A stretch of 42,822 nt of DNA from Sulfurimonas sp. Lineage in GTDB: Bacteria; Campylobacterota; Campylobacteria; Campylobacterales; Sulfurimonadaceae. The stretch covers positions 111,254 through 154,075 of the forward strand of contig PPDH01000040.1 in the NCBI GenBank assembly GCA_002899765.1, given 5' to 3'. Below the pieces are notes generated by a model that had not been told where the DNA came from, made no database searches, and was given only the letters and a program-made list of their open reading frames with translations. The translations under genes were made by a program, and so were the position numbers. Below are positions 9,657 through 40,207 of the stretch, in pieces; the stretch's first letter is position 1; every line of letters starts with the position of its first letter.

Positions 9657-10475
9657 ATGTCAAAGGTTGTTTTGATAACGGGGGCGAGTTCCGGAATGGG
9701 CAGGGCGAGTGCAGAGTTTTTGTCTGCAAAAGGCTTTGTGGTTTATGCGGGAACCAGAGATGTCAAAGAGATCGATAACTATAAAAATGAAAATATTACT
9801 CCTCTGAAACTTGATTTAAGAGATCAAAAGAGTATAGATGCAGCCGTAGCATTTATAAAATCTCAACATCAAAAGATAGACATTTTGGTAAACAATGCAG
9901 GGTATGGGCTGGTCTCAAGCGTTGAAGACGTAAAAGAAGAGGAGATGTTAAACCAGTTCAACATAAATGTTTTTGGAGCTTTGCGTGTGTGTAAAAGCGT
10001 CATCCCTTTGATGCGGGAAAACGAAAGCGGCTTGATTATAAACATAAGCTCTTTTTTGGGAAAAATCGGTCTGCCGCTTTTGACCATGTATAACTCAAGT
10101 AAATATGCGCTTGAGGGCATAACGGACTCTTTGCGTTACGAGCTTAAAGATTTTGGTATAAGAGTTCACTCCATAATGCCCGGATTTTTTGATACCAAAT
10201 TTGCAAGGCAAAACCTTGTGACAAATGAAAAAACATTTGATGCAAACTCTCCGTATGCAAAAATAGTTGCAACGTTAGCACCCGTTATAGTTGAACAGAT
10301 TAACAACGGAAACAGTGCCAAAGAGGTTGCTGAGATGATTTTTGAGATAATCCAAAATCCAAAATTTCCTGCTCGCTCTACCGTCGGCGATAAAGCCAAA
10401 AAATTTATCCCTATGAAAAAAGAGCTTAGTGATGAAGATTTTGAGAGACGGGTTATAGAGTACTACAATCTCTAA
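9657..10475 (+). CDS. Short-chain dehydrogenase/reductase (SDR), copy 1
   Basis: Classical SDR of 272 aa. The cofactor glycine motif TGASSGMG is at the N-terminus, followed by the NNAGYG motif, the catalytic serine in the NISSFLGK segment, and the Y-N-S-S-K active-site pair (near 10087-10104). These are NAD(P)H-dependent carbonyl or alcohol oxidoreductases; the substrate cannot be told. The ATG at 9657 is chosen over 9630 because AGAAGG lies 8 bases upstream and because copy 2 at 11498 starts identically with MSKVVLITGA. The stop overlaps the next start (TAATG), coupling it to the AraC-type regulator. The two SDR copies are clearly paralogous along their length, including matching C-termini (FVPMRKSLSDEEFE versus FIPMKKELSDEDFE). 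Confidence 0.88.
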   Translation: MSKVVLITGASSGMGRASAEFLSAKGFVVYAGTRDVKEIDNYKNENITPLKLDLRDQKSIDAAVAFIKSQHQKIDILVNNAGYGLVSSVEDVKEEEMLNQFNINVFGALRVCKSVIPLMRENESGLIINISSFLGKIGLPLLTMYNSSKYALEGITDSLRYELKDFGIRVHSIMPGFFDTKFARQNLVTNEKTFDANSPYAKIVATLAPVIVEQINNGNSAKEVAEMIFEIIQNPKFPARSTVGDKAKKFIPMKKELSDEDFERRVIEYYNL

Positions 10476-11497: not shown

Positions 11498-12310
11498 ATG
11501 TCAAAAGTAGTTTTAATAACAGGTGCTACATCGGGGATGGGTGCGCTTACTTCAAAATTTTTAGCAGATAATGGATACACTGTTTATGCAGGCACTAGAG
11601 ATGAAAATGTACCACTTGGTGAAGGCAACCTAAAAAATATCTATATAGATGTCACAAAAACCGACACAATTAAAAAAGCAATCAACACAATTATAAAAAA
11701 CGAGGGGAAGATAGATGTCCTCGTAAACAACGCAGGTTACGGACTTTTAGCAACGCTTGAGGAAGGAACGGATGAGGAAATTTTTAATCAGTTTGATGTA
11801 AATGTGTTTGGACTAATCAAGACGACAAGAGAAGTTCTTCCTTACATGAGAGCTGCAAAGAGCGGAGTTATTATCAATATCAGCTCATTTTTAGGCAAAA
11901 TGGGGCTTCCTCTATTATCACACTATAATGCTTCAAAATATGCGGTTGAGGGGATAGTAGACTCTTTACGATTTGAGACGCTTCCTTTTGGAGTGAGAGT
12001 TCACTCCATTGAGTCTGGACTCTTTGGAACAAACTTTGTCAAAAAAGGTCTGGTTGCTAATGCAAAAACGACAAGCGAAGATTCTCCTTACAAAGAGCTT
12101 GTTGCACACTTTGTTCCAATTGTGGCAAAAGCTATCAATGAAGGACCATCCGCACAGCCTATCGCAGATGCAATCAAGATGATTATCGAAGATGAAAATG
12201 CTCCTATTGCCGTTCCTGTAGGTGCAGAAGCAACAACATTTGTGCCAATGAGAAAAAGCTTAAGCGACGAAGAGTTTGAGCAAAAAGTCAAAGAGACGTT
12301 TGGTATATAG
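11498..12310 (+). CDS. Short-chain dehydrogenase/reductase (SDR), copy 2
   Basis: 270 aa classical SDR and paralogue of the gene at 9657. It has the TGATSGMG cofactor motif, NNAGYG, NISSFLGK with the catalytic Ser, and Y-N-A-S-K with the catalytic Tyr and Lys (near 11929-11943). It has its own sigma-70-like promoter and a strong AAGGAG. The stop TAG at 12308-12310 abuts the next ATG at 12311 with no gap, so the peroxidase-like cytochrome gene downstream is probably in the same transcript. Substrate unknown; identical architecture suggests duplication from copy 1 with the regulator trapped between. Confidence 0.9.
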   Translation: MSKVVLITGATSGMGALTSKFLADNGYTVYAGTRDENVPLGEGNLKNIYIDVTKTDTIKKAINTIIKNEGKIDVLVNNAGYGLLATLEEGTDEEIFNQFDVNVFGLIKTTREVLPYMRAAKSGVIINISSFLGKMGLPLLSHYNASKYAVEGIVDSLRFETLPFGVRVHSIESGLFGTNFVKKGLVANAKTTSEDSPYKELVAHFVPIVAKAINEGPSAQPIADAIKMIIEDENAPIAVPVGAEATTFVPMRKSLSDEEFEQKVKETFGI

Positions 12311-13504
12311 ATGAAAAAGCTGCTCTTTTACTCTCTTCTTCTCGCCATAGCAGTGCTAAGTACCGTTGTTACGATAGCACTTTTGACACCAAGTAAAAAG
12401 ATTCCAAATTATAGTGATGAAAAATTAAGAGAGATGGCTTTGAGTAAAGGTTTAAAACCTGTTCCTGCTTCGTTTGAGAAGCTGTTGGAGCTTGTAGATG
12501 ACGCGTCAAATCCCATGACGCATAAAAAAATTGCACTGGGAGAAGAGCTATTTTTTGATACAAATCTCTCAAAAACAAAAACAACAAGCTGTGCTACATG
12601 TCACTCTTTTGATAAAGATCTTAAAAACAAAGGCGCAATGCTGACAATGCTTGCGCAAAAAGATACAAAGATTACCGATTGCGCGGCTTGTCATTTGCAG
12701 GATCAAAGCGGAGTTGATAGATTTACCTTCTCAGAGGGTGATGCCGGAGTAGAGCATCCATACCTTTTAAATACGCAAACCATTTTAAATACGGCATTTG
12801 CCAAATACTTTACATGGAGCGGCGAGGTAAGCAGCATAAAAGAGCAGAGTGCAAATTCGCTTCAAGCTCCCCATAAGATGAATATAACGCCGCAAGAGCT
12901 TGAACAAAGATTAAAAGAGAGTTCTAAATATACGCAGATGTTTGCAGAATCTTTTGCAGATGGCATTACATTTGAAAATACGGCAAAAGCGATAGAAGTT
13001 TACGTAAAGACACTTGTAACAAGAGGTTCTTATGATAGATTTTTAGAGGGCGACAATAGTGCAATGAGTGAAGAAGCAAAAAGAGGGTTGGCAAACTTTA
13101 TAAGCTTTGGATGCAAAGGGTGTCACAGCGATATCGCTTTTGGCGCTCAGAGTATTCAGAGATTTCCGCTTAGAGAGTTTGCTCAGTTATATGACGTAAA
13201 GCCAAATTTCGAGATACTTCCGCAGCTTAAACGATTTGATAGAGAATTTCCTTTTGAAAATCAAGGCGGCTATTTGGGAAAAGATAACGAGCATCTTTTT
13301 CGGGTTCCGATGCTTAGAAATGTAACAAAAACATCCCCGTACTTTCATAACGGAGCAGTCGCAAAAATTCGAGAAGCGGTAGATGTTATGGCAAGACACC
13401 AGATAGGACGTCATCTTACGCTTGAGCAGATTGATGAAATAGTCGCTTTTTTTAGAACGCTTGAGGGCGATATTGTAGATTACAGAGCGGGAGATGAGAA
13501 ATGA
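12311..13504 (+). CDS. Cytochrome c peroxidase/MauG-family protein with three CxxCH sites
   Basis: 397 aa exported haem protein. An N-terminal hydrophobic segment (residues 3-26) acts as signal peptide or anchor. CxxCH motifs are at 94-98 (CATCH), 124-128 (CAACH) and 268-272 (CKGCH). The diheme cytochrome c peroxidase/MauG family normally has two, so the CAACH site is an extra haem. Family-like segments LFRVPMLRNVTKTSPYFHNG (near residue 345) and ALGEELFFDTNLS (near 75) are present. Such enzymes reduce hydrogen peroxide in the periplasm with electrons from c-type cytochromes, or act as MauG-like oxidases. It overlaps the next multihaem cytochrome gene by 4 bases (ATGA), suggesting an electron-transfer partnership. 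Confidence 0.88.
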   Translation: MKKLLFYSLLLAIAVLSTVVTIALLTPSKKIPNYSDEKLREMALSKGLKPVPASFEKLLELVDDASNPMTHKKIALGEELFFDTNLSKTKTTSCATCHSFDKDLKNKGAMLTMLAQKDTKITDCAACHLQDQSGVDRFTFSEGDAGVEHPYLLNTQTILNTAFAKYFTWSGEVSSIKEQSANSLQAPHKMNITPQELEQRLKESSKYTQMFAESFADGITFENTAKAIEVYVKTLVTRGSYDRFLEGDNSAMSEEAKRGLANFISFGCKGCHSDIAFGAQSIQRFPLREFAQLYDVKPNFEILPQLKRFDREFPFENQGGYLGKDNEHLFRVPMLRNVTKTSPYFHNGAVAKIREAVDVMARHQIGRHLTLEQIDEIVAFFRTLEGDIVDYRAGDEK

Positions 13505-15309
13505 GAAGATTTTTTGTAAAGGTTTTGGTTCTTGTGATGTTTATCTCAGGTGTGTTGCAACTCAAACTTTTGGGTCTCTCATGGGAGAGTTTTAAAATTA
13601 TTCAGCCGCTGCATATAGTAAGTTCTCTTTTGATAATGCTCTTTTTTATGGACTCTTTTATCTATAAACATATACGCAGATACTACTTTGTCAAAAAGAT
13701 AAACAGCGTAGACGGATGGCTACTTCTTTGTGCATTTGTTCTTGTCACCTTCAGCGGTTTATACCTCTTTTTAGTGGGCAATACCGGGGGAGATAGTTTG
13801 GGAATACTCTCTTTTAATCTGCATCTCTTTGGTTCATTTGTTTTGTTAGCTCTTTTTTTATGGCATATTTTTATGTCAAAGAGGCAAAATATGCAGCCGT
13901 TGATAGCTCTTTTTTTCTTTATAACCGCATATCCTTCTCTCTCTTATAGCAAAATAACAGAGCTCTCACTTCTTGAGATAGAGACAAAGACAGGGAAGTA
14001 TCATAGCGAGGATTGGACCTCTTCTGCAAAGTGCAAATCGTGCCACAGCGAGATATTTGAACAGTGGAGTAACTCAAATCATAAGCATATTGCAGGCTCA
14101 AACCCGTACTACATGGTTATGGAGACACTTGCAGGAGAGGTTGAGGGGCAAGAGTTTCGCAAATGGTGCATGAGTTGTCATAACCCAAGCGCACTCTCTT
14201 TGGGGCATCCTAAAACAACACATGCCATGGATGACAATATTGTTAGTGCCGAGATGTTTTAAAAAAGTGCAAAAACACTTCAAGATGATTTTAAAGAGCA
14301 TGGCAATTTTAGGGTTGAAGAGGGTGTTTCATGCATAACATGTCATCAAATAACAGACGCCTCAAGCAAGGGAAATGCTTCATTTAAGCTCTCGTTAGAG
14401 AGGCAAAAATACGCATTTGAAGATAGTACTTCAGATTTGGGACGCTGGTTTAGCGAAAAATTAATCAACTCAAATCCCGATGTGCATAAAAAAAGCTACT
14501 CTAAAGAGCTTTATAAAGAGAGTAAATATTGCGCCTCATGTCATGATGAGTTTCATCCGCAAAACGGCATAAAAATCGTCTCTACTTTTAAAGAGTGGGA
14601 AAAATCGCCGTACAACAATCCAAAAGACAAGAGCAAACATAAAAGCTGTATAGATTGTCACATGACATACTTACAAGACGGAAAATTTGCACCGCTAAAG
14701 GGTACTTCTACCGACGGCGGTGTTCTAAAGGATGACGTTAAAGTTCACTACTTCGCAGGCTCAAACCACTTTCTGAGCGGACTTAGAGATAAAGAGCATG
14801 AGGAACAGACTCTACAGCTTCTTAGAACCTCGGCAAAACTTGACATGGATATAAAAGAGGGAGTTTTGGAAGTAGGCGTAAAAAATGTAGGTGCAGGACA
14901 TCATCTGCCGACTGGAGTTGCAGACTTTAGAGAGTTGTGGCTTGATGTCGAGGTTAAAGATAAAAAGGGCGCTGTTATTTTCTCTAGCGGCAAACTAAAA
15001 AAGGACGGCAATATAGAAGATGGAAGCAGACTCTTTCAAAAAGTCTTCGGCGATGAGAACGGCGAGCCTGTAGGACTTCTTTTTTGGAAGTATAAAACTC
15101 TTCTGAGTGATACGAGAATACCTGCAGGGGAGAGAAGAGCGGAGAAGTTTGAACTGCCAAAAGATGTTCTGTATCCGCTGCAGGTAAGTATAAAACTCAA
15201 CTTTAGAATCTATCCGCAATGGGCAACAGATGCGGTAAAAAAACTCTTTCCGACTCTTTCAAATCCAAACGTAGTTGAGTTGATGAAAATAGAAAAAGAG
15301 TTTAAGTGA
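13501..15309 (+). CDS. Membrane-anchored five-CxxCH cytochrome c, interrupted by in-frame TAA
   Basis: The N-terminal 150 residues contain about four hydrophobic segments with membrane-facing histidines (for example FNLHLFGSF and LWHIF), possibly a small cytochrome b-like anchor. A periplasmic part follows with five CxxCH sites: near 14032 (CKSCH), 14167 (CMSCH), 14332 (CITCH), 14530 (CASCH) and 14647 (CIDCH), resembling the cytochrome c554-type family. TAA at 14260-14262 interrupts the frame after EMF, but coding continues in the same frame (KSAKTLQDDFKEHG), and three of five haem sites lie beyond it. The intact protein would be about 602 aa. The C-terminal region (after residue 450) is a haem-free beta-like domain. 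Start overlaps the peroxidase-like gene; the end overlaps the next gene by GTGA. Likely carries electrons between the quinone pool and the periplasmic peroxidase; inferred. Confidence 0.82.
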
Positions 15310-16869: not shown

Positions 16870-18936
16870 TTATTTAACTAAATGAGCACTCTCTTTGATG
16901 GAAGCTTTGGCTATTTTGTTTGCATAATCCTCTAAAAGAGTATGACTGTTAATATTTTTTGCACCCTCATTTTTTATCTTTTTATAAGAACCGTCGCTTT
17001 GGAGTTCATGCGCCAAAGTATTGTCCGCGCACTGAAGTCTTAGTATCTGGATAATTTTCTCTTTTGCACCCTTGTCTTTAATCGCCGTTAAGAGCTCTAT
17101 GCGTCTCATAAGGTTTCTCGGCATCCAGTCGGCACTTGAGATATAAACACCAGTCTCATCGTTTTTAAAGTAGAATGTTCGTGAGTGTTCAAGATATTTT
17201 CCGAGTATCGAGATAACTCTGATGTTCTCACTCACCCCTTCAATCCCAGTTTTTAAACAGCAGATACCGCGGACTATAAGATTGATTTTTACGCCCGCTT
17301 GACTTGCTTTGTAAAGAGCTCTGATAACATCTTCATCGACAAGAGAGTTTAGTTTTGCGATAATCTCTCCGTTTGCACCTTTTCTTGTCTCGTTTTGGAT
17401 AAGCGAGAGAACTTTGGGTTTGATTTGTGAAGGCGACATGTAGAGTTCGTTGAGCTTCCCTTTTTTGCTAAATCCCGTTAGAAAGTGAAAAAATCGTGTC
17501 ATGTCGCTTGTTACTTCATCTTTTGAGGTGAGATAACTCATGTCTGTATATATTTTTGAGGTAGCAGGATTATAGTTTCCTGTTCCCAAATGAGCGTACT
17601 GCTTTAGTTTGGCATTTTTTCTTCTTGTGATGAGCGTTGCTTTTGCATGTACTTTAAAACCTTTGATACCGTAGATTACATGTGCGCCCGCTTTTTCAAG
17701 CGCTTTTGCCCAGATAAGGTTGTTCTCTTCATCAAATCTTGCTTTAAGTTCAACCATAACGGTTACCTGCTTGCCTGATTCACTCGCACTCATAAGCGCT
17801 TTAACGATTGGCGAATCTGTTCCTGAACGGTATAACGTCATCTTTATGGATACGACATCAGGGTCTTTTGCCGCCGTTTGAATAAGTTTTACTATGGGGT
17901 CGAAACTCTCATACGGATGATAGAGCAGAATATCCTGCTTCTCCAAGGTAGTAAATATATTTTCACTGTTATCCAACGGAGGAAGCGTTTTTGGTTTAAA
18001 CGGTTCTGTTAAAAGATGGGCAAAATGTTTGTTTGAGACTATCTGCCAAAGACTTGAGAGGTTTAAAAAAGTATGAAATTTATAGATGTCGTCTTTGTAT
18101 ACGTTTGTGTGGCGGTTGAAAAAGTTGACAATCTCCTCATCCCCGTCACTTCCGACTTCAAGTCTTACCATAGCACCTTTTCGGCGAAGCTTTAAGCCTT
18201 CCTCTAGGATTTCCAAAAAGTCGTCTGCCTCCTCCTCTTCAATTTCTATATCGGCGTTTCTCGTAACTCTAAATGAGGCAAATTTTATAAGTGTGTATCC
18301 CGGAAAAAGATCCTCTACATGTTCGGCAACCAAGCTCTCTATAGGAACATAGATATCATGTTCAAGCTCTATAAATCTATCTAAAACTCTAGGCACGCGG
18401 ATTATTCCAAATCTCTCAATAGCTGTGTTGTCGCTGTCTTGTAGTTTTACGATAAGTCCGAAACTAAGGTTGTTTAGGTGTGGAAAAGGGTGTGTCGCAT
18501 CAACGGCGATAGGGATGATTACGGGATAAATATTTTCGTTAAAATATCTGTTTAGATAATGTCTTTGGTGCTGATTTACATCTTTGTATAGCTTTATGCT
18601 GATGCCCTCAGGCTCAAGTTTTTTTAAAATCCCGTTCATGCAGTGTTCAACTACCTGTTGCTCTTGATGGAGGTATTTTCTTATTTCGCGAAGCTGTTCA
18701 AGAGGTGTGAGCTTGTCCGCACTTGAGACTATGATGCCTGCGGCAAAAAGCTTTTTAAGTCCTGCAACTCTTATCATATAAAATTCGTCTAGGTTTGTTC
18801 CGTAGATTGCTAGAAACTTAAGACGCTCTAAAAGCGGAAGCGACTCATCTTGCGCTTGTTTTAAAACTCTTGTGTTAAATTGAAGCCATGAGATTTCACG
18901 ATTGTTGTACAGACTCGGATTTTTTAGATTTATCAT
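16870..18936 (-). CDS. ppk1: Polyphosphate kinase 1
   Basis: 688 aa, identical in length to the E. coli enzyme as I recall it. The catalytic histidines are recognisable: H430 (GFKVHAKATL), the autophosphorylated residue, and H584 (YLEHSRTFYF). Conserved blocks include NREISWLQFN at the N-terminus, YGTNLDEFYMIR, DATHPFPHL and the phosphate-binding GTGNYNP near 451. The enzyme makes long-chain polyphosphate reversibly from ATP. Start ATG at 18936 follows AAAT-rich DNA with a weak ribosome site. Lies 56 bases after lnt on the same strand. Confidence 0.97.
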   Translation of the reverse strand: MINLKNPSLYNNREISWLQFNTRVLKQAQDESLPLLERLKFLAIYGTNLDEFYMIRVAGLKKLFAAGIIVSSADKLTPLEQLREIRKYLHQEQQVVEHCMNGILKKLEPEGISIKLYKDVNQHQRHYLNRYFNENIYPVIIPIAVDATHPFPHLNNLSFGLIVKLQDSDNTAIERFGIIRVPRVLDRFIELEHDIYVPIESLVAEHVEDLFPGYTLIKFASFRVTRNADIEIEEEEADDFLEILEEGLKLRRKGAMVRLEVGSDGDEEIVNFFNRHTNVYKDDIYKFHTFLNLSSLWQIVSNKHFAHLLTEPFKPKTLPPLDNSENIFTTLEKQDILLYHPYESFDPIVKLIQTAAKDPDVVSIKMTLYRSGTDSPIVKALMSASESGKQVTVMVELKARFDEENNLIWAKALEKAGAHVIYGIKGFKVHAKATLITRRKNAKLKQYAHLGTGNYNPATSKIYTDMSYLTSKDEVTSDMTRFFHFLTGFSKKGKLNELYMSPSQIKPKVLSLIQNETRKGANGEIIAKLNSLVDEDVIRALYKASQAGVKINLIVRGICCLKTGIEGVSENIRVISILGKYLEHSRTFYFKNDETGVYISSADWMPRNLMRRIELLTAIKDKGAKEKIIQILRLQCADNTLAHELQSDGSYKKIKNEGAKNINSHTLLEDYANKIAKASIKESAHLVK

Positions 18937-23804: not shown

Positions 23805-23903
23805 GTATTTGTACGTTAAGACTGCTTAGATCACAAAACCTTTGGTTTGTTTAGAAAAGCTAGACTCTTTAGGAGTCAGAATAATTTTACAGGAAGTTTT
23901 AAA

Positions 23904-26372
23904 TTTGAATATAACGCAAAGACCATAGAGAAACAGTGGCAAGAATATTGGGCGCAAAACAGAAGTTTTGAGCCTAGTGAAGATTTTATCAAAGAGAAAA
24001 AATATATACTTAGCATGTTCCCTTTCCCAAGTGGAAGACTTCATATGGGGCATGTAAGAAACTACACGCTCAGCGATGCTTTTGCCAGATATTATCGTCA
24101 GCAAGACTTTAATGTTCTTCACCCAATCGGCTTTGACAGCTTTGGTATGCCTGCAGAAAATGCGGCTATTAAAAACGGCTCACATCCGAAAAAATGGACT
24201 TATGACAACATAGACTACATGAAGGGCGAATTTAAGTCGCTTGGATTTTCATTCTCAAAAGAGCGTGAACTTGCTACAAGCGATGAGCTTTATACAAAGT
24301 TTGAACAGGGTTTTATCATCGACATGTATGAAAAGGGTCTTCTTTACCGCAAAAAAGGTTTTTTAAACTGGTGTCCTAGTTGTCATACAGTTTTGGCAAA
24401 CGAACAGGTAATTGAGGGCTCATGCTGGAGATGTGATACCGTGGTCGTTAAAAAAGACATGAATCAGTACTACTTCAAAATCACCAAGTATGCCGATGAA
24501 CTTTTAGAGGATTTGCATAAGCTTGAAAATGGCTGGCCTAAGCAGGTTTTGACGATGCAGGAGAACTGGATAGGAAAGTCAAACGGTTTGGAATTTCAGC
24601 TTCGCTTTGATGATGTATCGTTTGTTAAATTGAAAAAAAACTTTGAGGGTTTTTATGTCTTTACGACACGCCCAGATACTATCTACGGTGTAAGTTATGC
24701 AGCTTTAGCGCCTGAACATGAGATAGTGACCTACATGATTGAAAATTCACTTCTTGATGATGAGACGGTTGTAAAAATCAAACAGATGAAAAACGCTTCA
24801 TCAATCGATAGACAAAAAGAGAAGAGCGGAGTTGCACTGGGTCTTGATATTCTCCATCCTCTGACAAACAAGAAGATACCTTTGTGGGTTGCAAATTTTG
24901 TTTTGATGGACTACGGAAGCGGCGCGGTTATGGCTGTTCCTGCACATGATGAGAGAGATTTTGACTTTGCTAAAAAATACGATTTGCCTATCAATGCAGT
25001 TATAAAACCATTTGAGGGCGAATTAGAGTCTGATAAAGCATATACGGACGCTGGAGAGCTCTTTAACTCGGAGATGTTTGATGGCATGAACTCCAAAGAG
25101 GCGCACTCAAAGATCATAGAGTACTTTGAAGAGAAAAAGATAGGCAAAAAAACAACGAACTACAAACTCAAAGACTGGGGAGTTTCACGCCAAAGATACT
25201 GGGGCGCGCCTATTCCCTTTGTCCACTGTGAGGGCTGCGGCATAGTTATGGAGAAAAAAGAGAATCTCCCGATTGCACTTCCTGAGGATATTGAGATTAC
25301 GGGAGAGGGAAATCCGCTTGAGAAGCATCCTTCGTGGAAACATTGCAAATGTCCTAAGTGTGACGGTGATGCAATCCGCGAAACAGATACAATGGATACT
25401 TTTGTGTAGTCTTCATGGTACTTTTTGCGTTTTTGTGCATCGCCGAAGAACTGGCAGGATGAGGCTTTTTCAAAAGAGCAGATTAAGTACTGGATGCACC
25501 GCAAAGGGCATGAAGGTGTTGACCACTATATCGGCGGGATAGAGCATGCGATACTGCACCTTCTTTATGCAAGGTTCTTTACAAAAGTTTTCCGTGACTT
25601 GGGTTACTTGGATTTTGATGAGCCTTTTGAGAAGCTTCTTACGCAAGGTATGGTTCTAAAAGACGGTGCTAAAATGAGCAAATCCAAAGGCAACACGGTT
25701 GATCCCGATGCGATTATAGAGAAGTACGGTGCTGACACGGCAAGACTTTTCATACTCTTTGCAGCGCCTCCTACGCAGGAGCTTGAGTGGAATGACAGTG
25801 CTGTTGAGGGTGCTTATAAATTTATAAAAAGATTTTATGATAGAAGCTCACATGTAAACAAAATCAGTGCAATCCCTTACATAGAACACTCCACTCTTTC
25901 AAAAGAGGAGAAATTTGCAAGAAAAAAAGTGTATGAAGCACTTGTCCGCGCGCAGGACGTTTATAGTGAGAAATATACATTTAACACTATGATTGCAGGT
26001 GTCATGGAGGCCATGAACGCACTTAACCTTCAAACAAACAGAGATGTCTGGAGCGAGGGGTACTGGATACTTACTTCCATTATGGAACCTGTAATCCCGC
26101 ATGTCTGCTGGGAAATTTCTCATAACTTCTTCTCTCTTAAAAACTTAACTCCCCAAAGTGTGCTAGAAGAGGTTTTTGTAGAGGATACTATAATGCTCGG
26201 TGTTTCCATTAACGGAAAGAGCAGATGCGAAATAGAAGTCACGCCGGATGCATCCAAGGAGAGTATACTCGAAGCTGCAAAAGAAAAAGCGCAGAAGTGG
26301 CTTGAGGGCAAGACGCTTGTAAAAGAGATTTTAGTTCCAAAGAAATTAGTAAACTTAGTTGTTAAGGATTAG
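23904..26372 (+). CDS. leuS: Leucyl-tRNA synthetase, interrupted by in-frame TAG
   Basis: Class I aminoacyl-tRNA synthetase that charges tRNA-Leu. The HIGH-type motif is [13 protein letters not shown] (near 24028), the editing (CP1) domain shows TTRPDTIYG, and KMSKS is [10 protein letters not shown] (near 25666). TAG at 25407-25409 interrupts the frame in the conserved MDTFV-E-SSWY motif, where Glu is expected; the frame then continues intact (SSWYFLRFC) to 26372. Full length would be about 822 aa. The natural start is expected at 23904, 7 bases after AGGAAG, yet the codon there is TTT; homologues begin (M/L)EYN, and TTG to TTT would explain it. TTG at 23847 is the only in-frame standard start upstream and adds an odd basic extension. 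The gene is essential, so a real double lesion is unlikely without readthrough or a second copy. Confidence 0.93.
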
Positions 26373-28452: not shown

Positions 28453-29597
28453 GGGTAAAAGAGTATTTAAATCTTAAACCGCTTTATTATGAGCAGATTG
28501 ATTATACTCGTATGCCTCGCATATACGAGAAGATAAAATCCTCTTTTGCTGCCGTAAAAATAGTACATGTTATCGGAACAAACGGCAAAGGTACAACAGG
28601 CAGATTTTTGGCTAATGCACTTTTTTCTATGGGCTTTTGTATTGGACATTACACATCGCCTCATATCTTAGAGTTTAATGAGCGGATATGGAAAAACGGT
28701 GCAAATATAAGTGATATAGAGTTAGAAGAGGCACATCAAGAGCTTCAAAAGATTTTAACAAAAGATGATGCCGATAAGCTGAGTTATTTTGAGTATACGA
28801 CATTTTTGGCAATGCTGCTCTTTAGCGGGTGCGACTATGTAGTCATGGAAGCAGGTCTGGGAGGCGAACATGATGCGACAGCCGTATTTCCAAAGCTGCT
28901 CACTCTTGTAACACCGATTGCATACGACCATGAAGCTTTTTTAGGCTCAAACATAGATGAGATTGCCGCTACAAAATTAAACGCGATTCAAAAGAGTGCA
29001 ATTTTAGGCACTAAAAACTATGAAGAGGTATATGAGACTGTGCAGAGATTGCGTGGTGAAAAATCTTTAAATATAAAAAGAGTCGATGAAGTTATAGATA
29101 ATGAAGATAGACAAAAGATAGAAGAGATTTCAAAAAATTACTCTCTTGCTCCATATTTAGCTCAGAATCTCTCTCTTAGTATTGCGGCTATAAAGTTTTT
29201 AGGTCTTACATATGAAATAGAAAACTTTTCACATCCCGTGCTTTTTGGAAGACTTACAAAAATAGCCAAAAATATAACGATAGACGTAGGTCATAATGTT
29301 TTAGCGGCTCGAAGTATAGTCGATGCACTTTTGGGAGAGAAATATATACTCGTATACAATAGCTATAAAGATAAGAACTACAAAGAGATTTTAGCAATAC
29401 TTAAACCAATTGTTTTACATGTTGAGATAATCGTTATAAATGATATAAGAGCTGCAGAAATTGAGAGTATTCAAACTGTTTTAACAAACTTAGAGATAAA
29501 ATATAAATTATTTAAAGAGGTAAAACCTGAGTTTAATTATCTGGTATTTGGTTATTTTAGTGTTGTAGAAGCATTTTTAAGAGAGTATTATGAATAA
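28449..29597 (+). CDS. folC: Bifunctional folylpolyglutamate/dihydrofolate synthase
   Basis: 382 aa Mur-ligase-superfamily enzyme adding glutamate to folates. The P-loop is VIGTNGKGTTGRFL (near residue 40), and GHYTSPHILEFNERI with GAGLGGEHDAT are family blocks. Shorter than the E. coli FolC (about 420), as in other Campylobacterota. GTG start overlaps the previous stop (GTGA) and the end overlaps the M23 peptidase start by 8 bases. Confidence 0.9.
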   Translation: MRVKEYLNLKPLYYEQIDYTRMPRIYEKIKSSFAAVKIVHVIGTNGKGTTGRFLANALFSMGFCIGHYTSPHILEFNERIWKNGANISDIELEEAHQELQKILTKDDADKLSYFEYTTFLAMLLFSGCDYVVMEAGLGGEHDATAVFPKLLTLVTPIAYDHEAFLGSNIDEIAATKLNAIQKSAILGTKNYEEVYETVQRLRGEKSLNIKRVDEVIDNEDRQKIEEISKNYSLAPYLAQNLSLSIAAIKFLGLTYEIENFSHPVLFGRLTKIAKNITIDVGHNVLAARSIVDALLGEKYILVYNSYKDKNYKEILAILKPIVLHVEIIVINDIRAAEIESIQTVLTNLEIKYKLFKEVKPEFNYLVFGYFSVVEAFLREYYE

Positions 29598-30435
29598 TCA
29601 CTTTACGATTACTATACATGACGATAATGGTGTAAAACAGTTTAATCTTCATAAGATTATAAAAAAAGCTGTTTTTTATGCAGTTTTATTTATCGGCTCT
29701 ATTGCTCTTATCGCCCTTGGCACAATCTTGTATCTTGATTATGCGGTAGAACAGATAGAGACAAAGCATGAGAGTGTTCAAAAGGCCTACTTGGTGCAGA
29801 AGGAGAAAAATAGACTTCTAGACGAGAGTATAAAAGAGGCACAAATAGCTCTAGTGAATAAAAAAAGAGAACTTATGGATGTTTCAGATGCGCTCTCCGA
29901 GATAGAGACTCTCATAGGGCTTGCTCCCGTAGCAGAGATGTCACTGCAAGATAGAGTAAATGTGACAAAGTTAAACTCTGAACACATGGTTACGCTTATG
30001 CAGTTTATTCCTAGCGGTTCCCCAATCATATATAACGGGCTTACAAGCAGTTTTGGTTACAGAATACACCCCACGCTTAATTCAAAAGAACTTCACCGCG
30101 GAATAGATATGAAAGCTGCTATGGATACGCCTGTTTATGCAACTGCTGACGGAATTGTAGAGTGGGCTGGATTTCATGAGAAGAGTGGATTCGGGAATCT
30201 TATAATTCTTCAGCACAATTATGGCTTTAGATCTTATTTTGCTCATTTAAACAAAATTGTGATAAAATCGGGCAGTTTTATTAAAAAAGGCGATTTAATT
30301 GCTTATACTGGTAACTCAGGAATGAGTAGCGGTCCGCATCTCCATTATGAAATCAGATTTATTCAAAGGGCAGTTGATCCTATAGAATTTGTCAGATGGA
30401 GTGTAAAAAATTATAACGATATATTTGAAAAGTAG
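29590..30435 (+). CDS. M23 (LytM) peptidoglycan endopeptidase, Csd1/Csd2-like
   Basis: 281 aa. A membrane helix (residues 26-48) anchors the protein, followed by a coiled coil (about 50-105) and a LytM domain. The zinc ligands are H and D of HRGID (near residue 173) and the H-L-H of GPHLHYE (near 252). The order folC - M23 peptidase - bactofilin - mfd matches H. pylori folC-csd2-csd1-ccmA-mfd, where these peptidases trim peptidoglycan crosslinks to make curved or helical cells. Here a single M23 gene stands where H. pylori has two. All zinc ligands are intact, which suggests the active Csd1-type member. A role in shaping the cell wall is inferred. Confidence 0.88.
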   Translation: MNNHFTITIHDDNGVKQFNLHKIIKKAVFYAVLFIGSIALIALGTILYLDYAVEQIETKHESVQKAYLVQKEKNRLLDESIKEAQIALVNKKRELMDVSDALSEIETLIGLAPVAEMSLQDRVNVTKLNSEHMVTLMQFIPSGSPIIYNGLTSSFGYRIHPTLNSKELHRGIDMKAAMDTPVYATADGIVEWAGFHEKSGFGNLIILQHNYGFRSYFAHLNKIVIKSGSFIKKGDLIAYTGNSGMSSGPHLHYEIRFIQRAVDPIEFVRWSVKNYNDIFEK

Positions 30436-30446
30436 AAACAGATACC

Positions 30447-30875
30447 ATGGCAATCTTTAATAACGGCGACAGCACACATAAAGGTACCAAACCCGACACA
30501 AACACTACCATCATCACAGCTGGCTCTACAATCAAAGGAGAGATGAACCTTTCATGTAATCTCTATGTCGATGGAGAATTTGAGGGGATAATAAACTCAA
30601 GCAAAGAGGTTAATATTGGTAAAAGCGGGCATATTAAAGGGGATATATCCACAACAAGACTTGTTGTTCAAGGATATATAGAGGGCAGTATTAATGCCGC
30701 AAGAGTAGAGATTAAAGCACATGGAAGAGTAAACGGCTCTATAGAATCATGTGAATTGGTAATCGAAGCAAAAGGTATTTTTGAAGGAAGCAGCATTGTA
30801 AAAGATGTGTCTGCCGCACCTACAAAAGCATCACTTAGCCAAAAGATTCCAGAAGATACTTTAAAAGTATCATAG
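30447..30875 (+). CDS. ccmA: Bactofilin (CcmA-like)
   Basis: 142 aa beta-helical cytoskeletal protein. The region from about residue 28 to 120 is a chain of short repeats such as ELVIEAKGIFEGSSIV and GHIKGDISTTRLVVQGYIEG, the right-handed helix of bactofilins. In H. pylori CcmA organises the Csd peptidases to set helical shape. It follows the M23 gene after 11 bases and precedes mfd after 16 bases, the same order as in Helicobacter. The short N- and C-terminal tails are polar and probably disordered. Confidence 0.92.
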   Translation: MAIFNNGDSTHKGTKPDTNTTIITAGSTIKGEMNLSCNLYVDGEFEGIINSSKEVNIGKSGHIKGDISTTRLVVQGYIEGSINAARVEIKAHGRVNGSIESCELVIEAKGIFEGSSIVKDVSAAPTKASLSQKIPEDTLKVS

Positions 30876-30891
30876 CCCTCAATCTGAATTA

Positions 30892-33864
30892 ATGTCACAA
30901 AACAGACTATTTCAATACTATAAAACTGCCAAAAATCAAGATTTAGAAATCTTGATTTGCCAAGATGCAAAAGAGGCGCACGAGTTAGAGAGCGTAGCGA
31001 ATTTTTTTAAAAAAGACGTTCTGGTTTTTCCTGATTTTAGAGCAACCCTCGGGGATGATTTAAGAGTATATAAAGAGGAGCTTCATGCGCTCTTTAGCAC
31101 TTTGCGAAAATATTATGCTCTTAAAAAAAAGCCTCTTATAATTTCGCCTTTAAAAACTCTTCTTTTTAATCTGCCAAAAGCAAATCTTTTAGCCTCTACA
31201 ACACTTGAGTTCGGCTCTAATATAGAGTTAAAAAAATTTAAAGAGCAGATGCTTTTTTGGGGCTACAGCTTTGTAGATATGGTTCAAGTCGAGGGTGAAA
31301 TATCTTTTCGCGGTGATATCATAGATATTTTTCCGCCATCATCCGCTATGCCTCTTAGGATTTCACTCTTTGACGACGAGATAGAGCAGATAAAATATTT
31401 TGAGCTTGAATCGCAAAGAACACAAAAAGATGAGCTAGAGAGTGTAGAGATTACACCGGCTTTTTATTCGCTGAATGAAGATGAGTTCAATAGTTTAAAC
31501 GCCAAGATTGCCAAAAGTGAATTTAACTCTTTGGTTAAAGATATCGCTTCTTTGGGATTTTGGCACCTTGAGGAGAGTGCGGTAAATTTTTTAGAGGGTA
31601 AAAATGCCAAGCTTGTCAGAAACCTTGATACTCTTTTGGTTGATGCTTATGCTCTAAATAAGCCCACGCTCTCAAGAGAGTGTTTTAATCTTGAGGTTTT
31701 AGGCGAATACGATGATTTTAAAGAGATATCCGTGAGTGACGTTCACGCTCTTTTAAAGGTATATAAAGATAAAAAAATAACGGTTATTGCTTCAAATGAG
31801 GCAGTAGTTAAGCAGGCGGGGCTATTTGATTTAAAAGGGATTGAGACTCGCTATGCTCCTTATATCTTAAATATCCTCACTAAAGATGAGCTTGTTATTT
31901 CTCTTAACAAGCGTGAAAAAATCAGACGTAGAAGAAAAAGCTCTATTTTGCTTGATGATTTAAAAGCGGGTGATTATGTTGTTCATGAAGATTACGGTGT
32001 CGGCATTTTTGAGAGTATTGAAAAGACTGAGATTTTAGGCGGTATTAAAGATTTTATAGTCATTAAGTATGTGGGCGATGACAAGATTTTGCTCCCCGTT
32101 TAAAATCTCGATGTTATAGACCGTTATATCGCCTCAGGCGGCTCTGTTCCTGTTTTGGATAAACTCGGCAAAGGAAGTTTCGGCAAGCTAAAAGAGAGCG
32201 TAAAAAAGCGGCTTATGGAGATAGCCGGGCAGATTGTCAATACCGCCGCCGCAAGAGAGCTTATAAAAGCACCCAAAATCAGCGTAGATGAGAGCGAATT
32301 AAGAGCGTTTCAAAAGCTCTCAGGATTTCTTTATACTGATGATCAGACACAATACGTAAATGAGATAATTGCGCAGATGAGTTCGGGTCACATCATGGAC
32401 AGGCTTCTTAGCGGCGATGTCGGTTTTGGTAAAACGGAAGTGGCAATGAATACTATCTTTGCAGCGTACAAGTCGGGTTATCAATCGGCTCTAATCGTTC
32501 CGACAACGCTACTTTCCGCACAGCATTACCGCTCACTTCATGAGAGGTTTGATGAGCTTGGGATAAAGTGCTCGAAGCTCGATAGATTTGTAAGCTCAAA
32601 AGATAAAAAAAATATCATAAAAGCACTTGCAAGCGGAGATTTGGACGTCGTTGTCGGAACACATACTCTTTTTGATTTGGACTTTAAAAACCTTGGCGTG
32701 GTAATTATAGATGAGGAGCATAAGTTCGGTGTAAAACAAAAAGAGAAGATAAAAGAGCTTTACCACAATGTTCATCTCCTCTCCATGAGTGCGACTCCGA
32801 TTCCCCGCTCACTTAATCAGGCACTAAGCTCAATCAAAACCATGTCGCAGCTGCTTACTCCGCCAAGCGAGAGAGAGCCTGTGCGGACATTTGTAAAAGA
32901 GTATGATGAAAAGCTCATAAAAGAGGTAATCCTTCGTGAAATCCGCCGCGGAGGACAGATATTTTACGTACATAATTCGATAGACCATATGCCGATAAAG
33001 CTCGGAGAGCTAAAAGCGATACTTCCCCAGTTAAGAGTAGTTATGCTCCACTCTAAAATTTCTGCTACAGAGACGGAAAAAGAGCTTCTGAAATTTGAAG
33101 CGGGGGAGTATGACCTGATGCTTGCAACCTCCATTATAGAGTCGGGTATTCATATGCCGCGTGTAAATACTATCATAGTAGACGGTGCGGACAGATTCGG
33201 AATGGCGGATCTGCATCAGCTCCGCGGCCGTGTGGGGCGCAGCAGTGTCGAGGGATTTGCATACTTCATAGTTGAAAACAAAGAGACACTTACCGATGAT
33301 GCGAAAAAAAGACTTCTTGCATTAGAGTCAAACTCTTTCTTAGGAAGCGGTTCGGTGCTCGCATATCACGATTTGGAGATAAGAGGCGGCGGAAATCTTG
33401 TCGGCGATGCCCAAAGCGGACATATCAAGAACATAGGCTACTCTTTGTATCTTAGAATGTTAGAAGATGCTATAAAACTACTGAGCAATCAGGCGCAGAG
33501 TGAAAAGCTAAAAGTGGATATAAAGCTTACTATATCAGCCTATATCTCCGATGAAGTGGTAAAAGAGGACAGACTCAGATTAGACATCTATAGACGTCTT
33601 TCGTCATGTGAGACGCCGCTGGAGATATATGAGATACAAGAAGAGGTTATAGACCGTTTCGGCGAACTTGACACACCTACAAAACAGTTTTTTGAACTTA
33701 TGGTCATCAAAATTTTGAGTTTGCATAAGAAGATTAAGAGTGTTTCAAACTATGGACAAAATATTACACTTACCTATATGGACGAGAAAAAAGAGAGCAT
33801 AAAGTCTGACTCAAAAGATGATGACGACATAATAAAAGCAGTGCTGAAGTATCTGAGGGCTTGA
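30892..33864 (+). CDS. mfd: Transcription-repair coupling factor Mfd, interrupted by in-frame TAA
   Basis: DNA translocase that removes stalled RNA polymerase and recruits UvrA. The N-terminal UvrB-like region contains MVQVEGEISFRGDIIDIFPP; the RNA-polymerase-interaction (CarD-like) domain shows GDYVVHEDYGVGIFE. Beyond the stop come Walker A GDVGFGKTEV (near 32416), DEEH (near 32713), SATPIPR and the RecG-type motif QLRGRVGRSS (near 33217). TAA at 32101-32103 falls in the block LLPV-E-NLDVIDRYI, where Glu is expected, and the frame continues unbroken for another 587 codons. Intact length about 990 aa, normal for the phylum. The ATG at 30892 follows the bactofilin gene closely; no other start is better. 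Confidence 0.93.
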
Positions 33865-34989: not shown

Positions 34990-36699
34990 ATGAGTTCAGC
35001 AGAAGTTATAAAAGAAAGACTAAAAAAATTATTAATACCTGAAAAAGCTTTTGGAATTGCAATAAATGGAGAATGGGGAGTGGGTAAAACATTTTTTTGG
35101 CATGAATTTGTCAAAGAAAATTTTACAGATAAAAAAATAGCCTATATTTCACTTTTTGGAATTTCCTCGTTAAATGACATTAGAGTATCTATTTTATTAC
35201 AAACCTCACCAACAAAAAAGAAATTATCATGGGTTGACAAAAAAATAGTTACTTCATTAAAAAATGTAAAAAGTTCTTTAAAATTAGATGATTTATCAAT
35301 GTCGTTTGGTGTTGATGCTTTGGGCTCGATTTTTACATTATTAACAAATGGAGATTTTAAAAAGGTAATTGTATGTTTTGATGACTTTGAACGAATGTCG
35401 GATAACTTGAAGTTAAAAGATGTACTTGGCTTGATATCGGAACTAAAAGAGCAAAAAGAGTGTCATGTAGTGATGATACTTAATAAAGGTGAATTAAAAA
35501 ATGATGACTTGTCAAAATATAAAGATAAAATTATTGATTATGACTTTAATTATACTCCAACACCGGAGGAGTCTTACTCTTTAGTTAAAGAGAACTTGAA
35601 AGTATTTCAAGATTATCCTTTAGAATATTTTCAACAACACAATATCAATAATATACGGGTTATAAAAAGAGTAATCAATGCTTTAAATGATTATGAGTTT
35701 GCTAAAGATTTAGTAAAAGAACATAAAGATATTGAGCGAGAACTTGTTGAAAATATATTGGAAATTTCGACAATTAATGCTATTGATTTGTCTATAGATT
35801 TTGAAGAGTTAAGCGACCATACTAAGAAGGGTCATTGGGATGATTTTTTAGATAGTTAAAATAAAGAAAAAGTTAAAAATGAAGATTTTGAAAAGCTATT
35901 GATCTATATAAATTTTGGAACTAGTGGATATTTTCATATAAGTGACTTTACTCATAATGTAATCTCTTATGTTAAAAATTCGTTTGTAGAGATAAAATTT
36001 TTAAAAAAAGGTATTGAAAATAGAATTGAAAGTGAAAAATATAGTATTGTTAAAAACGAGATTGATGATTGTTTGACAAAAGCAAGATATGATTTTAATT
36101 ACACATTTGAAGAATATACAAAAAAATTATACAGTTTGTTTGAAGAAAATAAATCAAATATTACACAAATTTTAGATTCTGGAAATTTTATTTTTTACAT
36201 AGAAGAACTTATAAAGTATGACAATATAAATAAAGAGAAATATACAACTTTTGCTATTGAGGTTCTTAAGCAATATTTACAACAGTATAAAAAAAATCAA
36301 GATGAAGATTATGACCCATTTAAAGAGAAAAATATTGAAGATATAACCTCTTTTCATTCTGAGTTGAACAATTATTATGAAAGTTTAGAAGCCGTAAAAA
36401 TAGAAGAGATAAACTCAAGTAAAAAACTAATAGAACTAGTTAATGAAGCTATTAAAGGTGTTGGGGATAAGTCGGCATCTTTGTTATCACATGTAAAAGA
36501 AGAAGATATTGAAAAATATTTTTTGAAAGATATAGACTTTGTAAAAAACTCCTTAATGTTCCTTTCATGGGAGAAAAAGTCTGTTTCGGCAGATTTTGTA
36601 CCGTACAAAGAGAAGCTTTTGAAAGTAATAAATAAGATAAGAGAAGAAGGTAATGAATACCAAAAAGAAAAAATGAATATCTTTTTAGATAAACAATAA
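34990..36699 (+). CDS. KAP-family P-loop NTPase, interrupted by in-frame TAA
   Basis: The N-terminal NTPase domain has Walker A GEWGVGKT (residues 27-34) and a Walker B-type KVIVCFDDFERM (near 35370). This matches the KAP/YobI-type P-loop ATPases found in phage-defence and mobile loci. TAA at 35857-35859 breaks the frame after DFLDS, but protein-like sequence continues in the same frame (NKEKVKNEDFEKLLIY) to 36699; the intact protein would be about 569 aa. The C-terminal half is charged, helical and of unknown function, with no membrane segment seen. ATG 34990 is preferred to GTG 34981 because homologous KAP sequences begin near the conserved AEVIKERLKK stretch. Strongly AT-rich; with the RhuM gene it forms a two-gene accessory cassette. 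Confidence 0.75.
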
Positions 36700-38144: not shown

Positions 38145-38819
38145 ATGAGTGCAAAAATTGTTGTTGTAGAAGATGAAGAGGATATTTTAGAACTTATTGA
38201 GTACAATTTACAAAAAGAGGGATATGAAGTTATAGGTTTTTTAAACACTAAAAGTGTTGAACAGATGCTTATTGAAGAGGAGGTAGACCTTCTTATCATG
38301 GATAGAAATCTTCCCGGAGTCGAGGGAAGCGAGTTTGTTCAAAGGCTCTCAAGAGAGGGATTTACAACACCGGTAATATATCTAAGCGCAAAAAATCTGG
38401 ACTCTGAGATAGAAGAGGGGTTTTTAAGAGGAGGAGACGATTACATAACAAAACCGTTTAACATGAAAGAGTTGATGCTGCGTATAAAAGCCGTTTTGCG
38501 AAGAACTTCTAAGAAAATGCAAGATGGAATTTTGTCTCACAGAGATTTGGTTTTAGATAAAAGTTCAAGAATATTGACGGTTGATGGCAAAAAAACAGAT
38601 GTTACAAAACTGGAGTTTAATCTTTTGTGTGAATTTATTCTCAACAAAAACAGCGTGCTTGACCGTGACTACCTTTTAGAGAATGTCTGGGGAGACGGCG
38701 AAGAGTACCAATACAGAACCGTAAATGTCGCCATAAACAGACTAAAAGAGAAGATAGACCCCGATAAAACAAAAGAGTATATAGAAACAGTTCGCGGAGT
38801 TGGGTATAAACTGTGCTAA
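38145..38819 (+). CDS. OmpR/PhoB-family response regulator
   Basis: 224 aa. Receiver domain: acidic pocket E9/D10 with D53 as phospho-acceptor (LLIMDRNLPGVEG), S81 and K103 (YITKPF). C-terminal winged-helix DNA-binding domain shows TKLEFNLLCEFILN and the RTVNVAINRLKEKI recognition helix, ending ETVRGVGYKL. Closest in form to PhoB; target genes unknown. ATG 38145 has GGGGACATTT upstream. The gene overlaps the histidine kinase GTG start, so the two are a cognate pair. Confidence 0.92.
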   Translation: MSAKIVVVEDEEDILELIEYNLQKEGYEVIGFLNTKSVEQMLIEEEVDLLIMDRNLPGVEGSEFVQRLSREGFTTPVIYLSAKNLDSEIEEGFLRGGDDYITKPFNMKELMLRIKAVLRRTSKKMQDGILSHRDLVLDKSSRILTVDGKKTDVTKLEFNLLCEFILNKNSVLDRDYLLENVWGDGEEYQYRTVNVAINRLKEKIDPDKTKEYIETVRGVGYKLC

Positions 38820-40207
38820 AAATACATCAGATATTTATATTAAAGTTTTTATTTCTTTTCATAACCACACTTTTAATATCTTCAGTTATTAGTTACATTG
38901 TACTTAAAGATATAATCATACAACATAATAAAAATCACTTAAAACATGCAATAGAATTTATGGAGCTGGATTTAAAAAATGTAGATAATTTAGATGATTT
39001 TGCAACTAAAATAAATGAAAAAACTTCTCTTAGAGTAACTATAATTGCAGGAAGCGGAACTGTTTTGGCTGAGTCGGATGCAGATAAAAATGAGATGGAT
39101 AATCATGCATCAAGATTTGAGGTTATGGCTTCTAACACACAAGATTACGGTTATATAACGAGATATTCAAACACGGTAAAAGCAGATTTTTTATATGTTG
39201 CAAAAAAAGTAGTCTATAAAAATGAGCAGATATATATAAGACTCTCTATGAGTTTGGCACAAATTATGTATGACTTTTACTCTTTGTGGACGAGATTGTT
39301 TTTTGTATTTGTAGTAATTGTTATTATTGCGGCTTTTGTATCTAAAAATATGAGTCAAAAAGTGGTTTACGACATTGAGCAGATTACAAATTATTTGGAT
39401 GAGATTTCAAACAAAAACTATAAAGCGATTATTAAAACTAAATATTTCTATGAATTTTTGCAGATTTCTCTTCTTTTAAAAAATTTAGTAAAAAAACTGA
39501 GTAAAAGCGAGAAGAAAAAGTCAAAACACATGGCAAAGTTAAGGCTGGTAAACAAACAGAGAAACGATATCCTCTCTGCTCTTTCACATGAGTTTAAAAA
39601 CCCTGTAGCGGCAATAATGGGGTATGCACAGACTATTCAAGAAGACAGCACTATGCCGCAAAATATACGTGATAAATTTTTAAGCAAAATCAGCTCAAAC
39701 TGAGAAAAAATATCTAAAATGCTCGATAGACTGGCTCTTTCGGTAAAGCTGGAAAACGGCGATTTGACACTTAAGAAAAGTGAGTTTGATTTAGGCGCGC
39801 TCTGCGCGGAAGTCGCATCAAATTTTGCATCAAAATATAAAGATAGAGATATAGTGCTCAAGGTTGAAAAATTGATGATTTTTAGCGATAAAACCATGCT
39901 TGAGCTTGTATTGGACAATTTGGTAGACAATGCTTTAAAATACTCAAGCGGTGATGTTATTATAGCTCTAAAGGACGGTAATATTTTAGTACAAGATAAC
40001 GGTATCGGAATAAAAGAGGAGCATCTGCAAAAAATTACAAATAAATTTTACAGAGTAGATAAAAACAGCTGGGATAACTCCATGGGGCTCGGTTTAGCGA
40101 TGGTTAGCTATGTTTTGAGACTTCTTGATTCCTCTCTTGAGATAACCTCAGAATTTACAAAAGGTTCGATATTTAGCTTTAGTGTCCAAAATATGATAAA
40201 GAGTTAG
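38813..40207 (+). CDS. Membrane sensor histidine kinase, interrupted by in-frame TGA
   Basis: GTG start overlaps the response-regulator stop. Two membrane helices (about residues 9-31 and 161-176) flank a small periplasmic sensor region of about 130 residues; dimerisation box with H259 (SALSHEFKNPVAA) follows. TGA at 39701-39703 breaks the frame after LSKISSN; the same frame continues EKISKMLDRLAL. The ATP-binding half beyond the stop has the N box LDNLVDNALKYSSG, the G1 box VQDNGIGIKEEHL and the G2 box MGLGLAMVSYVL. Intact length about 464 aa. As written the stop would separate the phospho-acceptor His from the catalytic ATPase domain. PhoR-like by order and size; stimulus unknown. Confidence 0.88.

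Follow-up and report, generated by a model that had tools for sequence, protein, structure and literature searches.

How can the only leuS gene found in a nearly complete bacterial assembly lack both a start codon and an intact reading frame? The gene encodes the bacterial leucyl-tRNA synthetase (TIGR00396) and lies on the plus strand at positions 23904..26372 of the window, by which we mean the whole stretch of DNA analysed here (42,822 nucleotides, the end of contig C25). The window belongs to a Sulfurimonas-like assembly (G000) of 2,390,858 bases in 45 contigs, with a G+C content of 36.9%, a completeness of 98.48% and a contamination of 3.11%. The TIGR00396 profile matched leuS with 1018.6 bits for both pieces combined (the halves were also scanned separately), which exceeds the curated cut-off of 548.4. 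A first-pass annotation of the sequence had named a second intact leuS as the finding that would make this copy a genuine pseudogene; a search of the whole 98.5%-complete assembly revealed no second bacterial leuS over the TIGR00396 cut-off. Strong leuS matches were found in 184 of 200 genomes of the family, G000 included, and among the matches listed (that of G000 lying outside this list) only G067 has an internal stop in the gene.

The two lesions of leuS

The in-frame TAG and the missing start reported in the first-pass annotation are both present in the assembled sequence: the gene begins with TTT (23904..23906, plus strand), is interrupted by TAG at 25407..25409 (plus strand), and its frame then runs to the TAG at 26370-26372. 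As that annotation stated, the TTT stands where TTG is expected after AGGAAG, a motif resembling a ribosome-binding site (23891..23896, plus strand) and separated from the TTT by 7 bases. The motif has identical letters in Sulfurimonas Kmv11 (L039, the sister), in KA11 (L040) and in G004, the close relative used as a reference, and all three have TTG as the start codon. The leader is otherwise very similar, and the immediate context reads AAA-TTT-GAA in the window vs AAT-TTG-GAA in the three relatives, i.e. the G>T in the start codon is accompanied by a T>A at 23903, just 5' of it. A pair of run-length changes (+A/-G) would produce identical letters. An in-frame TTG at 23847 opens a mechanical ORF of 520 aa, but neither L039 nor G004 has a start codon there, thus a conserved upstream start of leuS is unsupported.

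The internal TAG falls within the MDTFVESSWY motif, at a position occupied in relatives by Glu. In an alignment of 93 relatives, limited to loci in plus orientation and containing some relatives twice (retrieved via two tools), the residue is Glu in 90 (51 GAG, 39 GAA) and Gln in 3; with both orientations aligned, GAG or GAA is found in 106 of 109 relatives. The residue described as invariant-looking is hence nearly, not strictly, invariant. The proposal that G>T explains both lesions fits the start codon and the TAG but leaves the T>A at 23903, which had not been mentioned, outside the explanation. The identity to G004 at leuS is 83% (88.7% across 821 aligned columns), and the homology continues unbroken through the stop. 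The gene carries 69 private substitutions vs 61 in that of the sister, mostly at third positions and dominated by transitions, and only 3 of its private changes, the stop included, affect residues that are at least 97% conserved. The stop aside, leuS evolves normally, much as the sister's gene does.

Interrupted genes in the window and elsewhere in the assembly

Comparison with G004 ORFs revealed seven genes in the window with one in-frame stop each, at positions where G004 has Glu in six cases and Ala in one. Besides the TAG in leuS, the stops found on the plus strand include a TAA at 14260..14262 (Glu in G004), in an unnamed gene (13501-15306) with no NCBIfam match at 1e-20; a TAG at 30433..30435 (Glu in G004), in a gene (29590-30543) resembling M23-type peptidases with scores below the cut-offs; a TAA at 32101..32103 in mfd (30892-33858), where relatives have GAA in 10 cases and GAG in 1; a TAA at 35857..35859 in a 66%-identical gene, which falls at an alignment gap and is a weaker case; and a TGA at 39701..39703 (Ala in G004) in a histidine-kinase-like gene (38813-40204), where the codon differs from that of G004 by more than one base. 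On the minus strand, a TAA at 16870..16872 lies about 11 codons short of the end of the relative's protein; it may be the natural end of the gene and was not counted as internal. The window also contains a paralogous pair (9657-10472 and 11498-12307), to which one G004 protein aligns at 51% and 90% identity, respectively.

The comparison was extended to 709 kb of the 2.39-Mb assembly and 813 kb of G004, using mechanical ORFs of 100 aa or more and keeping alignments with at least 65% identity over at least 80 columns (210 of 743 G004 ORFs, and in the reverse direction, G000 ORFs against G004, 225 of 647; the rest were discarded). Stops were considered internal if located at least 15 columns from the alignment end, which excluded 8 stops in G000 and all 9 in G004; the per-site substitution table used 10-column margins, and all p values given here are nominal, several tests having been made. 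The 210 alignments (74,005 columns) contain 36 stops in G000, of which 28 are internal, one each in 28 genes, which amounts to interruption of about 13% of the genes sampled and aligned (28/210). The reverse comparison (225 alignments, 73,125 columns) contains 9 stops, none of them internal (Fisher test, 7.5e-9). Internal stops occur on all five contigs that yielded alignments (C25: 7, C32: 7, C2: 8, C26: 5, C5: 1), the sampled stretches of C4, C29 and C6 having yielded none.

The interrupted genes, named after their intact G004 counterparts, include leuS, lysS, pyrH, glmU, rseP, trpB, trpC, aroB, sdhA/frdA, mfd, ychF and flhA, as well as an lptF-like gene (below its cut-off). Several of the broken genes are usually considered essential; copy number was checked for leuS only. 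A second aminoacyl-tRNA synthetase gene, valS (G000:C32:27802-30443, minus strand), is broken alongside the substitution-hit leuS, in this case by a frameshift-like break near 29.5 kb and not by a substitution. A survey of start codons in the two directions gave 13 non-start codons in 179 genes vs 20 in 194, counts in which mechanical ORF starts misplace many starts both ways. No sequence motif is evident 5' of the stops that replace Glu or Asp, and the preceding base (T 10, A 7, G 4, C 2) is background-like.

Spectrum of the substitutions

The single-base nonsense changes are overwhelmingly of one kind: 19 of 21 are GC>TA transversions (G>T or C>A), against an expected 35% (p 2.5e-7). Per available site we found G>T in 16/6,679 and C>A in 3/3,140, a GC>TA rate of 0.19-0.22% with a strand balance compatible with equality (p 0.15), while all other kinds pooled gave 2 changes in 17,894 opportunities (A>T 0/7,281, C>T 0/1,929, C>G 0/2,430, T>A 1/3,150, T>G 0/2,222, G>A 1/882). 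The A>T class includes Lys codons and the C>T class Gln codons, and both contributed no nonsense change. The residues found in the relative at the 28 internal stops are Glu (18), Ser (3), Gly (2) and Cys, Trp, Ala, Ile and Asp (1 each), and TAA, TAG and TGA all occur at these sites. The exceptions to GC>TA are one TGG>TGA, one TTA>TAA, the T>A beside the leuS start and the valS frameshift.

If the changes were untied to the reading frame, GC>TA should be raised among missense changes as well. A count in conserved context at codon positions 1-2 revealed no GC>TA excess (G>T 23 vs T>G 25, C>A 55 vs A>C 56), and only a small one appeared when the genes had 93% identity or more. Radical missense changes (BLOSUM62 score of -2 or lower, in genes with 85% identity or more, unpolarised; a test picked after the earlier missense counts) were more frequent for GC>TA (24/14,138) than for TA>GC (8/20,250; p 1e-4) or for the six other transversion types (27/53,620; p 2.6e-5). 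The excess, 0.12%, is lower than the nonsense rate in the same genes (0.22%), albeit of the same order of magnitude, and against the sister Kmv11 alone the missense counts were 12 vs 4 (p 0.04). Radical transitions (G>A 7/2,884 and C>T 7/3,704 vs A>G 7/6,122 and T>C 7/7,245) also reveal a lean of G000 towards A+T relative to G004, about 2-fold as compared to about 4-fold for GC>TA. Composition drift may therefore explain part of the radical GC>TA excess, which weakens the missense test and lowers our confidence in consensus error.

Private changes at sites unchanged in at least 7 other genomes were analysed in four regions. GC>TA accounts for 17 of 132 such changes in G000 vs 148 of 2,465 pooled over 11 genomes (p 0.003); the 17 comprise 9 G>T and 8 C>A, 12 of them missense and 5 nonsense, and no nonsense change was found at these sites in any of the 11 other genomes. 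Two of the regions were chosen for their known stops, so the nonsense count there is inflated, and these carry most of the signal, with GC>TA making up 3 of 49 changes in the other two (contig starts). With missense counts pointing both ways, a process that seems blind to the reading frame and affects missense sites too is supported less firmly than the nonsense excess itself.

Origin of the GC>TA changes

The first-pass annotation read the leuS lesions as a sign of sequence error or hypermutation and not of selection, and the wider sample bears this out: the GC>TA bias is found throughout the sampled part of the assembly, and other genes usually regarded as essential are broken. The GC>TA specificity of the nonsense changes, their spread over the sampled contigs, the hits in housekeeping genes and the lone copy of leuS are direct observations, for which scattered GC>TA consensus errors of the oxidised-guanine type, with leuS as a double hit, are the best explanation and in our opinion a probable one. 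Since the same G>T-type change interrupts many other genes, the defects of leuS most likely reflect damaged or misread DNA and not biology, and the gene is most likely intact in the living cell.

Oxidised guanine copied opposite adenine yields G>T, which appears as C>A when the opposite strand is read, and GC>TA sequencing errors of this origin are known as the "OxoG" artefact. The pairing of oxidised guanine with adenine on copying is outlined in PMC9636213, and oxidised guanines in sheared overhangs are put forward, in the summary given by PMC8748355, as a possible source of G:C>T:A errors. In G000, errors of this kind would have hit either strand, whatever the reading frame, at about 0.1-0.2% of the G/C positions; with 8-oxoG paired to A and few templates behind each consensus base, a lesion could have become fixed in the assembly. 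Within coding DNA such changes would turn GAA or GAG into TAA or TAG and a TTG start into TTT. At 36.9% G+C, an error rate of 0.1-0.2% per G/C site would correspond to about one error per 1.5-3 kb, i.e. one or two in a 2.5-kb gene. The chance of a double destructive hit, roughly estimated as the ~13% of interrupted genes multiplied by ~0.2% at the start G, would make one such gene unsurprising among a couple of thousand. We infer both that 8-oxoG was the chemistry involved and that the DNA sample or its sequencing, rather than living cells, was the source of the errors. A consensus error nevertheless needs few templates or low depth, neither of which is suggested by a 45-contig, 98.5%-complete assembly. 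In a literature search at the level of abstracts we noticed no publication describing errors of the GC>TA kind in genome assemblies.

Alternative explanations

The same spectrum, in nonsense and radical missense changes alike, would be produced by a natural GC>TA mutator, i.e. by a clade without MutY and MutM/Fpg whose population carries many recent mutations not yet purged, and among the alternatives to consensus error this one, although unlikely, survives best. According to the overview in PMC11078426, the GO system guards against GC>TA and MutY is often absent from bacterial genomes. The MutY profile gave only weak matches in G000 (82.5 and 28.8 bits, cut-off 286.5); strong matches were found in 33 of the 60 genus genomes searched, G000 being among the 60, and are absent from nine close relatives (G004, G011, G020, G031, G038, G039, G045, G046, G054). 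No Fpg match was found in any of the 10 genomes tested, G000 included. Thus neither mutY nor fpg was found in G000, an absence that is uncertain in a 98.5% complete assembly. However, G004, which lacks both genes, has no internal stop in 225 alignments and GC>TA in only 6 of its 168 private changes. A mutator through the loss of MutY became less attractive as a candidate, as close relatives also lack MutY yet exhibit no excess of stops, and no GC>TA nonsense excess was seen in the relatives sharing the loss, with no nonsense change at invariant sites in each of 11 genomes (among these, the MutY search covered all but G060 and G061, and the Fpg search all but G038, G039, G045 and G046). The private spectrum of leuS is moreover ordinary and transition-dominated. 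From general knowledge, the simultaneous breakage of leuS, lysS, pyrH, glmU and valS should be lethal, and with about 13% of the genes sampled broken, aminoacyl-tRNA synthetases included, the cell should not be viable, which is why we favour error over hypermutation. A living Sulfurimonas lineage without MutY/MutM that bears an extreme recent GC>TA load in its essential genes, and survives because its genome copies differ or because all three stops are read through widely at a low level, appears quite improbable.

A consensus error of another origin, such as an assembly or polishing fault or a mixture of strains, with a preference for G>T and C>A arising by chance, is to be considered very unlikely, as so strong a bias of the nonsense changes towards GC>TA points more naturally to oxidised guanine. 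It would find support in the frameshift in valS and in isolated N bases: the 709 kb of G000 contain 18 short, scattered runs (26 N in total, mostly single), vs none in the G004 stretches. These N may mark positions where the consensus was weak, unless they are masks introduced by the database. One isolated N (G000:C25:111253) directly precedes the window, and the others occur at 17 further places.

According to another possibility, the cell reads TAA and TAG, for the most part at Glu positions, as sense codons, so that the interrupted genes are functional. The 18 of 28 internal stops at Glu positions, the presence of both TAA and TAG, and the divided missense evidence on whether the process is untargeted speak for such decoding, but we regard it as extremely doubtful. 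TGA and positions of Ser, Gly, Cys, Trp, Ala, Ile and Asp are affected too, the terminator of leuS itself is TAG, and readthrough leaves the lost start codon unexplained. TTC is the anticodon of the tRNA-Glu genes detected, and none of the tRNAs detected, an incomplete set (150 of 188 candidates scored, with no tRNA-Ala or tRNA-Ile among them), has an anticodon that would read a stop; two genes with an RF-1 domain (release-factor family) have no stop inside the match. Recoding of TAA/TAG to Glu had been a candidate when 13 of the first 18 stops were at Glu and the initial missense count gave no G>T excess, and became less attractive when the larger sample revealed Ser, Gly and Cys sites with TAA and TGA; it is also weakened by the radical GC>TA missense excess and by the fact that neither a stop-reading tRNA nor loss of a release factor was seen. 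Eight of 30 distinct tRNAs of G000 have a close counterpart in the G004 stretches sampled; of the differences, one is a C>A, another a C>T, and the remaining six are confined to a single tRNA-Val. One tRNA-Glu (G000:C5:4263-4338) scores only 44.9 bits with Rfam yet is identical to its G004 counterpart, hence the low score does not reflect damage. Finally, that leuS is a true pseudogene with a functional copy elsewhere, as two lesions in a single gene could suggest, is scarcely credible given that a second bacterial leuS was not found in the assembly, that the remainder of the gene is normally constrained and that 27 other sampled genes are interrupted as well.

Implications and comparison with known systems

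The lesions of leuS are thus probably an artefact-like property of the assembly, of little biological importance, and leuS should not be recorded here as a pseudogene or a recoding event. The case is a warning that completeness and contamination values may look good (98.48% and 3.11%) while, among the genes sampled and aligned, about 13% are broken. A GC>TA-specific count of nonsense changes against a close relative would offer a cheap check, by which both such assemblies and mistaken reports of recoding could be recognised, and a clade lacking two GO-system genes would suit studies of mutation spectra.

The situation resembles stop-codon reassignment in that conserved genes run on through in-frame stops, and differs from it in that all three stop codons occur, at positions of several different residues, with neither a stop-reading anticodon nor the loss of a release factor seen. 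With mutators deficient in MutY/MutM (the GO system) it shares the transversion and the absence of both genes in G000; unlike in such mutators, G004 with the same absences lacks the nonsense excess, and the load carried here should be lethal. It differs from the OxoG data summarised in PMC8748355 (1e-7 per bp, error-corrected) in scale, since the changes here would stand in the consensus at about 1e-3 per G/C site, and it resembles the OxoG sequencing artefact in kind, with G>T and C>A on both strands and, as it seems, untied to the reading frame.
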